DNA of 64,000 nucleotides, from the NCBI RefSeq assembly GCF_002741945.1, contig NZ_MDVN01000022.1:496001-560000 (forward strand), written 5' to 3'. Positions 49,878-51,043 of the stretch are shown here, in pieces. The notes under the pieces are model-generated. The model searched no databases. It worked only from the letters and a program-made list of their open reading frames with translations, and had not been told where the DNA came from. A program made the translations under genes and the position numbers. Origin of the DNA: Gaetbulibacter sp. 4G1. Lineage in GTDB: Bacteria; Bacteroidota; Bacteroidia; Flavobacteriales; Flavobacteriaceae. Positions within the stretch are counted from its first letter, which is position 1; each line of letters opens with the position of its first letter.

Positions 49878-49922
49878 AATTGTTAAAATTTTTATTGTAA
49901 TGCTGTTAACAATTGGTTAAAA
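49878..49922. repeat. Direct repeat A (45 bp), left end of the peptide island
   Basis: 45 bp starting AATTGTTAAAATTTTTATTG and ending AATTGGTTAAAA. It is identical in 44 of 45 positions to 50999-51043 (one C/A difference at 49910). It lies 54 bp before the moxR start. Confidence 0.9.
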
Positions 49923-49925
49923 AAT

Positions 49926-49955
49926 AAAGGGTAACATAAATTTATGTTACCCTTT
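49926..49955. terminator. Perfect 30-bp palindrome, minus-strand terminator-like
   Basis: Arms AAAGGGTAACATAAA (49926-49940) and TTTATGTTACCCTTT (49941-49955), no loop. On the minus strand TTTATTTTTTAACC follows, so it could stop transcription coming from the island toward moxR. Confidence 0.7.
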
Positions 49956-50107
49956 AAGAAATATTCATTTATAAAAAATTATTTCATAATTTAGGTTAGT
50001 AATTGTTTACTAATAATTTCCTTCTAATAAATCTACCCTATTACTTTGGTTATTGAGCTACTGCGAAAGATGTATTATTTCTTGAAAATCGATACAATAT
50101 AAACACA
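49956..50107. other. AT-rich gap inside the island, no gene seen
   Basis: About 150 bp between two perfect palindromes. Both strands were checked for ATG-started frames; only short ones end quickly. Together with the palindromes this makes up the moxR-proximal 270 bp without a gene. Confidence 0.6.
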
Positions 50108-50139
50108 AAACCAGTATAGAGAATTCTCTATACTGGTTT
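50108..50139 (-). terminator. Perfect 32-bp palindrome after the peptide gene
   Basis: Arms AAACCAGTATAGAGAA (50108-50123) and TTCTCTATACTGGTTT (50124-50139). On the minus strand it lies 6 bp after the peptide stop and is followed by TTTTGTGTTTATATT, typical of a Rho-independent terminator. Confidence 0.8.
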
Positions 50140-50145
50140 AAACAA

Positions 50146-50355
50146 CTAATTAAGTATACAAGTTCCAGATGTTCCTTGATTATCATCATATTTACAAATG
50201 CATTGTGACGAACATAAATTTGAGCTAGAACAACTATTTCCTTTGCAACTTGATCCGTAACCCCCTACATAACCTCCAAAGATAGTTCTTAATTGATTTC
50301 GTTGGAGCATATCATTAGCTTCAAGTTTTAGACTTTTTAAACTTAATTTTTTCAT
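50146..50355 (-). CDS. Double-glycine leader, Cys/Ser-rich peptide precursor (bacteriocin/RiPP-like)
   Basis: A 69-residue precursor from ATG 50355, with the leader MKKLSLKSLKLEANDMLQRN and then QLRTIFGG (GG at residues 27-28). The frame runs 16 codons further up, but the MKKLSLKSLK start is the usual form for Bacteroidota peptide leaders of this type. The core of about 41 residues reads YVGGYGSSCKGNSCSSSNLC and ends with a tail carrying three more cysteines: six Cys and many Ser in all. Such peptides are cut at GG by a C39-peptidase ABC exporter and may be crosslinked by disulfides or lanthionines. No transporter, peptidase or modification enzyme is in this window. It lies between 45-bp direct repeats, in an island with palindromes. 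Confidence 0.75.
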   Translation of the reverse strand: MKKLSLKSLKLEANDMLQRNQLRTIFGGYVGGYGSSCKGNSCSSSNLCSSQCICKYDDNQGTSGTCILN

Positions 50356-50444
50356 TTTAATAAGGTTTAAATAATTATTTTTGCCTTGAACAGTTAAAGA
50401 CACTCAAGGTTTGTGTCTGCCCTCCGCGAAAGGATATTGTTCTT

Positions 50445-50474
50445 GCCTAAAGCATATGCTTTAGGCTTTTTTGT
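50445..50474 (+). terminator. Plus-strand terminator without an upstream gene
   Basis: Perfect 22-bp palindrome GCCTAAAGCAT-ATGCTTTAGGC (50445-50466) followed by TTTTTTG. No plus-strand CDS lies upstream within the island, so it may end a small RNA running antisense to the peptide leader. Confidence 0.75.
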
Positions 50475-50998
50475 TTTTATTACAATATTTCTCTTAAATT
50501 TCTACATTAAACTCTCTAGGCCACTCATAGTCATTTATAAAAATGCCTGAAAATGAGCAATACTTTCTACGTTGTATTATTTTCACATTACCACTATCTG
50601 TTCTTTTTTGTTATTCTAATTCTCCATTCATCGGGTATTTAATAATTTCACCTTATACAATAGATAACATTCTATCTCTTTGTGATTATTTCAATTTATT
50701 ACCAATTTTCGATACTTTGAATAAATTTCACATTGAAACACTGGTCGTATATATTGATTTCGAAAACTTGAAGAGATAGAATGCTATCTATTGTATATTT
50801 TGAAGTCGACTCAATGCTTAGTGATAATAGTCGCCGTTGAGTTGTGAATAGACAATAATCCATTATAACAGGTTAAATATTATAATTAAACAATTATTTT
50901 CAATAAAAAGATTATTGAAAATAAAATGTCCTAACTAGATTTGTGAGAATCCAAATGTAGGAAATTTTCTGTACAAAAAACATAGTGCTTTCTAAATT
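50475..50998. other. Non-coding part of the island with inverted repeats
   Basis: About 520 bp. It holds a 26-bp inverted repeat with one mismatch (50655-50680 and 50771-50796, loop 90 nt) and a perfect 11-bp dyad (TTATTTTCAAT at 50894-50904 and ATTGAAAATAA at 50914-50924). A 78-codon frame at 50543-50779 crosses the first inverted repeat and shows no recognisable protein. I see no convincing gene. Confidence 0.6.
50655..50796. repeat. 26-bp inverted repeat with 90-nt loop
   Basis: Left arm 50655-50680 begins ATACAATAGATAACATTC; right arm 50771-50796 reads as its reverse complement with one mismatch. Pairing extends by one base outward (T50654 with A50797). Could be ends of a small mobile element or a long stem. 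Confidence 0.8.
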
Positions 50999-51043
50999 AA
51001 TTGTTAAAATTTTTATTGTAATGCTGTTAAAAATTGGTTAAAA
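50999..51043. repeat. Direct repeat B (45 bp), right end of the peptide island
   Basis: Matches 49878-49922 at 44 of 45 positions, same orientation, 1121 bp apart. It lies 65 bp before the aldo/keto reductase start. Confidence 0.9.

Follow-up and report, generated by a model that had tools for sequence, protein, structure and literature searches.

A six-cysteine double-glycine-leader peptide gene distant from its probable exporter, and the conserved 5′-untranslated RNA element that precedes such genes in Flavobacteriaceae and Cyclobacteriaceae

Introduction

The bacteroidetocins are class II bacteriocins of the Bacteroidetes, and disulfides in them have been indicated by gel shift (Coyne et al. 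2019, PMC6671954). Neither a riboswitch nor an untranslated region is mentioned in that paper (PMC6671954). A second family of precursors with leaders ending in Gly-Gly (GG) in these bacteria, TIGR04149, comprises ribosomally made peptides (RiPPs) said to be rSAM-modified. Among regulatory RNAs, preQ1 and SAM-II are small translational riboswitches with pseudoknots. The peptide bacteriocins and signals of the Bacteroidota are hard to find, because the precursors are very small, show little conservation, and in many cases lie far from their exporters. The gene described here, from Gaetbulibacter sp. 4G1, lies far from the exporter that probably serves it and directly downstream of a structured RNA element that precedes many other genes of the same kind.

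The precursor gene and its surroundings

Positions are those of the window, the whole stretch of 64,000 nucleotides that was analysed. On its minus strand, at 50146-50355, lies a gene for a precursor of 69 residues, translated as MKKLSLKSLKLEANDMLQRNQLRTIFGG followed directly by YVGGYGSSCKGNSCSSSNLCSSQCICKYDDNQGTSGTCILN and a stop codon. The leader (28 residues; 50272-50355, minus strand) terminates in FGG, and the core (41 residues; 50149-50271, minus strand) is rich in Ser and Gly and contains six Cys. Translation thus confirms the frame, with a GG leader and six Cys, that an earlier note on this DNA had described. The perfect terminator that the note gave to the gene is likewise present 3′ of it at 50108-50139 (minus strand), as a perfect terminator-like inverted repeat with 16-nt arms and a T-rich tail; terminator-like sites in the region number three, against 0.2 expected.

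The genome, at 3.89 Mb and 99.96% complete, contains one paralogous leader, 65% identical to that of the orphan over residues 1-40 (E 4e-8), and among 397 genomes of the family, 22 contain homologues of the leader, so that the frame is not a chance open reading frame. No homologue of the core was found. A C39-processed double-glycine peptide is characterized by a short precursor whose conserved leader terminates in GG, and the orphan has this form. Its neighbours, named from their translations, are a moxR and von Willebrand-type operon to the left and an aldo-keto reductase to the right. Since no exporter is found among the genes around it, the statement that no transporter is near is true locally. 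The designation “orphan,” kept here as a convenience, is likewise correct for the neighbourhood but fails for the genome as a whole, where a matching exporter is encoded elsewhere, and an RNA element lies directly upstream of the gene.

The export operon and maturation in trans

The paralogous leader belongs to an operon that lies 460 kb from the orphan on the same contig. This operon encodes a C39-like/VKOR/thioredoxin fusion protein (529 aa), the paralogous GG peptide (64 aa, six Cys), a C39 ABC exporter (736 aa; C39 domain E 1e-33), an HlyD protein (433 aa), a protein of 323 aa whose LanC-like match is below threshold, and a glycosyltransferase of TIGR04157-like type. The exporter retains the C39 motif QPDSKDCGPTCL, and the genome thus possesses a cognate C39-peptidase ABC exporter adjoining a peptide of the same leader type. 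The paralogous leader and the C39-peptidase transporter that had been proposed as a check, to be sought elsewhere in the genome, are therefore both present; their proximity supports the view of the orphan as a precursor of the C39-exported kind, and the operon provides candidate machinery for the maturation in trans that the earlier note had foreseen.

The C39-like domain of the fusion proteins can be aligned to its profile from position 21 onward only and has neither the catalytic Cys nor the catalytic His; the WCxxC motif of VKOR and the CGxC motif of thioredoxin are retained. As these two motifs are kept, the machinery encoded beside the cognate leader is of a disulfide-forming type, which makes disulfide formation in trans, rather than lanthionine formation, the likely maturation of the orphan. 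The gene probably encodes a secreted class II bacteriocin-like peptide, likely disulfide-bonded.

A lanthipeptide-like product, also envisaged in the earlier note, is not supported, as the enzyme of the cognate operon is the VKOR/thioredoxin fusion, and the LANC_like match in the operon scores below the Pfam cut-off. Moreover, the gene clusters examined contained no recognisable lanthionine synthetase. The broader proposal that the orphan is a lanthipeptide or some other enzyme-modified RiPP (TIGR04149-type, rSAM- or LanC-modified, or glycosylated) draws on a weak TIGR04149 match of its leader (10.5 bits; operon paralogue 17.2) and on the LanC-like protein and glycosyltransferase of the operon, but all of these matches fall under curated cut-offs (25 bits for TIGR04149), and the best candidate in the genome for the TIGR04148 maturase reaches 20.9 bits against a cut-off of 300. 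The accessory genes are also scarce at the 79 fusion loci, with LanC-like genes in three and a glycosyltransferase gene in one, compared with an exporter in 59 and HlyD in 47, and enzymatic modification of this sort is judged quite improbable. A match of the peptide to the conotoxin-like Pfam family Toxin_11 (14.8 bits against 25) was rejected as a coincidence of Cys spacing.

A second VKOR fusion gene is located at C21:174-176 kb. It adjoins the third GG peptide of the genome (L012 4402-4587, MKKSILNFGRVLTKAEQKSINGG...), which has another leader and the same RNA element. Several units composed of fusion gene, element, and peptide (L198, L203, L207, and L211) are likewise without an exporter in the fetched flank, some flanks stopping at a contig edge, so that reliance on machinery in trans may not be exceptional. 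At L028 5854-6201 (G063), a GG peptide of the same leader type is found near a shortened C39 peptidase domain of 115 aa, apparently the remnant of an exporter.

Origin of the gene

The orphan lies within an inserted segment of 1,076 bp (49923-50998) that is missing from the intergenic region between moxR and the aldo-keto reductase in a second genome of the same genus (G003) and in other genera. Direct repeats of 45 bp flank the segment, the left copy (49878-49922, plus strand) having one mismatch and the right copy (50999-51043, plus strand) being identical to the single copy of G003, so that the two match at 44 of 45 positions. The site in G003 is empty, with 92% and 90% identity on either side of that single copy; genomes of other genera likewise have one copy, and no further occurrence of the repeat was found in the Gaetbulibacter sp. 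4G1 genome.

Comparison of the insert with the operon yields 275 bp at 80% identity and a further 33 bp at 91%, collinear in both. Upstream of the RNA element, at 50487-50644 (minus strand), is a decayed relic of the 3′ end of a C39-like/VKOR/thioredoxin fusion gene, matching at 113 of 143 aligned bases, with gaps and a broken frame. The RNA element of the orphan is identical to the operon copy at 63 of 66 positions and its leader at 62 of 84, and the core is unrelated. From this pattern, in which relic, untranslated region, and leader match but the core does not, we infer that the orphan arose by dispersed duplication from the operon 460 kb away, the copied part running from fusion-gene end through 5′-untranslated region (5′UTR) to leader, with the core replaced by a new one.

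Such a duplicate might also be functionless and simply not yet decayed, a pseudogene in waiting, as could be argued from its occurrence in one genome only, from the decay of the adjoining fusion relic, and from the fact that no promoter was identified for it. Yet the frame, the leader, the six Cys, the RNA element (95% identical), and the terminator have all been kept where the adjoining relic is broken, and changes in the leader are commonest at third codon positions (10 versus 8 and 4), although with dS saturated this is not a strict test. Loss of function therefore seems unlikely.

A phage or viral origin was rejected, with no PHROG match and no IMG/VR relative, as was a plasmid origin, with no plasmid match for the insert. 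The part of the insert unexplained by the operon copy contains a 34-nt inverted repeat (50647-50680/50771-50804), 88% complementary with 90 nt between its arms, which has no second copy in the genome. A second perfect palindrome with 16-nt arms, terminator-like on the minus strand, occupies 49925-49956 and starts 2 bp in from the left boundary of the insertion.

Structure of the RNA element

The element, a structured RNA of about 80 nt in the 5′UTR of the orphan (50370-50449, minus strand; model match 97.9 bits), has a structure derived from 21 copies. It consists of a weak helix P1 (50438-50442/50388-50392), a helix P2 (50430-50434/50420-50424) closed by a UCGCG loop, a helix P3 (50413-50418/50398-50403), and a pseudoknot (50404-50409/50384-50389) that joins the loop CCUUGA of P3 to the downstream tail UCAAGG and ends 28 nt from the ATG, all on the minus strand. 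Directly 5′ of the element is a perfect 9-bp hairpin (50445-50466, minus strand) with no U-run on that strand; the operon copy and several relatives have a similar hairpin, and many others have none.

Across 73 copies, 95.6% of the pairs of P2, P3, and the pseudoknot are formed, and 15 of these 17 pairs show changes on both sides. All five measures exceeded those of 500 of 500 shuffles and of every slid version of the structure. The pseudoknot is especially well formed (97.4% of pairs), all six of its pairs having changed on both sides and one varying over five types (GC, UA, UG, CG, and AU). Because this helix is not paired in the search model, the search involved no selection for its pairing. 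With loop and tail positions taken from alignment columns, 119 of 124 copies could pair their own loop and tail over at least 5 bp; with shuffled tails, the proportion averaged 50% and never exceeded 58%. P1 is formed in 78% of cells and has two bases in common with the last two pairs of the pseudoknot. Its existence as a full 5-bp helix is doubtful, and the overlap as modelled would allow a switch.

No Rfam 15 family matches the element above its gathering score; a weak match to the L10-leader lies on the opposite strand and far under the cut-off. The open-access papers searched yielded no RNA element preceding bacteriocin genes in these bacteria. Within Rfam 15 and those papers, the element thus appears to be undescribed.

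Distribution of the RNA element

All three GG-peptide genes of the genome are preceded by the element, the third having a different leader, and the same stretch of 5′UTR is also found before GG-peptide genes of relatives. A model search of 397 genomes of the family located it in 51, with up to eleven copies per genome. Among 40 matches fetched from outside the loci already given by peptide similarity, the first ATG opens a short GG-leader frame in 33, the control figure for randomly chosen starts in that DNA being 1.6%. The distance from the end of the model to this ATG is 11-16 nt (median 13) in all 33 but one, where it is 5 nt. The cores that follow contain 4-8 Cys, with a median of six, and the leaders vary widely (for example, MKNLxxLGKxLxKxEQKxINGG). 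At L132 1-1180 (G047:C13:144483), the clearest exception, the element stands before a 175-aa lipoprotein-like frame with no GG peptide, and L166 is an RNA match without a GG frame.

C39 domains occur in 44 of the 51 genomes with the element versus 83 of the 346 without it (odds ratio 20; Fisher p 7e-18, a value that ignores phylogeny). The element is found at most 200 nt after the fusion gene at 35 of 44 loci in two families, in 20 of 21 loci from named genomes of Flavobacteriaceae and 15 of 23 of Cyclobacteriaceae as grouped by organism names. The fusion loci of Chitinophagaceae, Sphingobacteriaceae, and Bacteroidales yielded no copy of it.

At L142, L150, L153, L154, L161, and L167, GG-peptide genes form tandem arrays, several of the genes each having its own element, and two genomes (G061 and G380) have up to eleven elements. 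Such arrays of element plus peptide, together with the presence of the stray copy within an insertion, could be taken to mean that the element works not as RNA but in the form of single-stranded DNA, perhaps as a site of recombination by which peptide cassettes are shuffled. This is considered highly improbable, as the sampled matches lie on the sense strand near the ATG, and the insertion is bounded by the 45-bp host repeat and not by the element. Covarying structure at a fixed sense-strand site before genes of one function is typical of a cis-regulatory RNA, and the element has these properties.

A proposed role for the element and its implications

The explanation that we regard as reasonably probable is that the orphan is an operon-derived, disulfide-bonded, bacteriocin-like peptide, served in trans and placed under a conserved 5′UTR RNA that controls translation. 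It builds on the comparisons, all at the level of sequence, that reveal the paralogue and its exporter, the duplication, and an RNA structure linked to GG peptides. The C39 ABC exporter of the operon would cut the precursor after FGG and export the core, whose six Cys would be oxidised by the VKOR-thioredoxin fusion, and the C39-like domain of that fusion, without its catalytic Cys and His, may bind the leader. The structured 5′UTR of the operon would have come along with the copy, and the stray gene would thereby stay under the control of the operon. Action of the RNA on translation is suggested by its fixed distance to the start codon and by the lack of a terminator between element and gene, so that control over the initiation of translation of C39-exported precursors is the most likely function of the element.

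How the element might do so is less certain. It may represent a new class of ligand- or protein-responsive switch gating the translation of C39-exported peptides in at least two families of Bacteroidota, a proposal made tentatively and at somewhat less than probable strength. Alternatively, it could be a constitutive aid to translation (a ribosome standby site or enhancer) or a stabiliser of the mRNA that travels with peptides needing high expression and does no switching. Fixed spacing to the ATG would suit such an aid, as would gene neighbourhoods that suggest no ligand and the general lack of Shine-Dalgarno sites in most Bacteroidota. We nevertheless hold it to be somewhat unlikely, because many positions outside the pairs, among them the UCGCG loop, AGACA, and UUUAA, are conserved across two families beyond the needs of a generic structure, and the overlapping P1 and pseudoknot could be mutually exclusive, as in a switch.

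Should the element be a switch, a whole class of bacteriocin-like peptides would share one form of RNA control. Secreted disulfide peptides would then make up a regulon at the RNA level, with stray genes that have no exporter drawn into it as well, and the switch would account for a dispersed precursor remaining co-regulated with its exporter. The element is also a marker independent of peptide sequence, as its sampled matches led to Cys-rich genes whose GG leaders are of many kinds.

Comparison with known systems

Several described systems share single features with this locus. The SAM-V type riboswitch (PMC6061858) has a short 5′UTR pseudoknot near the start codon, as does the element. The small pseudoknot riboswitches differ from it in topology, genes, and taxa, and no Rfam model matched. 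The leader of the NF047798 “bacteriocin-like protein” of Chryseobacterium is also a short GG leader; the operon paralogue and the third peptide match that model at 12-13 bits against a cut-off of 23.5, and the orphan is unmatched. With TIGR04149 the orphan has a leader pattern in common (MKKLSLxxLxLxxxxxLxxxxLxxxxGG), but it falls under the cut-off of that family, and its genome is without the cognate TIGR04148 maturase.

The bacteroidetocins have more in common with the present system, since both comprise a GG-leader precursor with several Cys, and since the set of C39 ABC transporter, thiol oxidoreductase, and further membrane protein in their clusters has an analogue here. Their leaders are 15-16 aa long and their peptides have four Cys, whereas the orphan has a leader of 28 aa and six Cys, and the likeness is one of logic rather than of established sequence similarity. 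Here, the corresponding cluster lies 460 kb from the orphan, and its oxidoreductase is the C39-like/VKOR/thioredoxin fusion. Thus, although by leader length the peptide is not a member of the bacteroidetocins, it is, judged from these gene and leader comparisons, nearest to them in logic.
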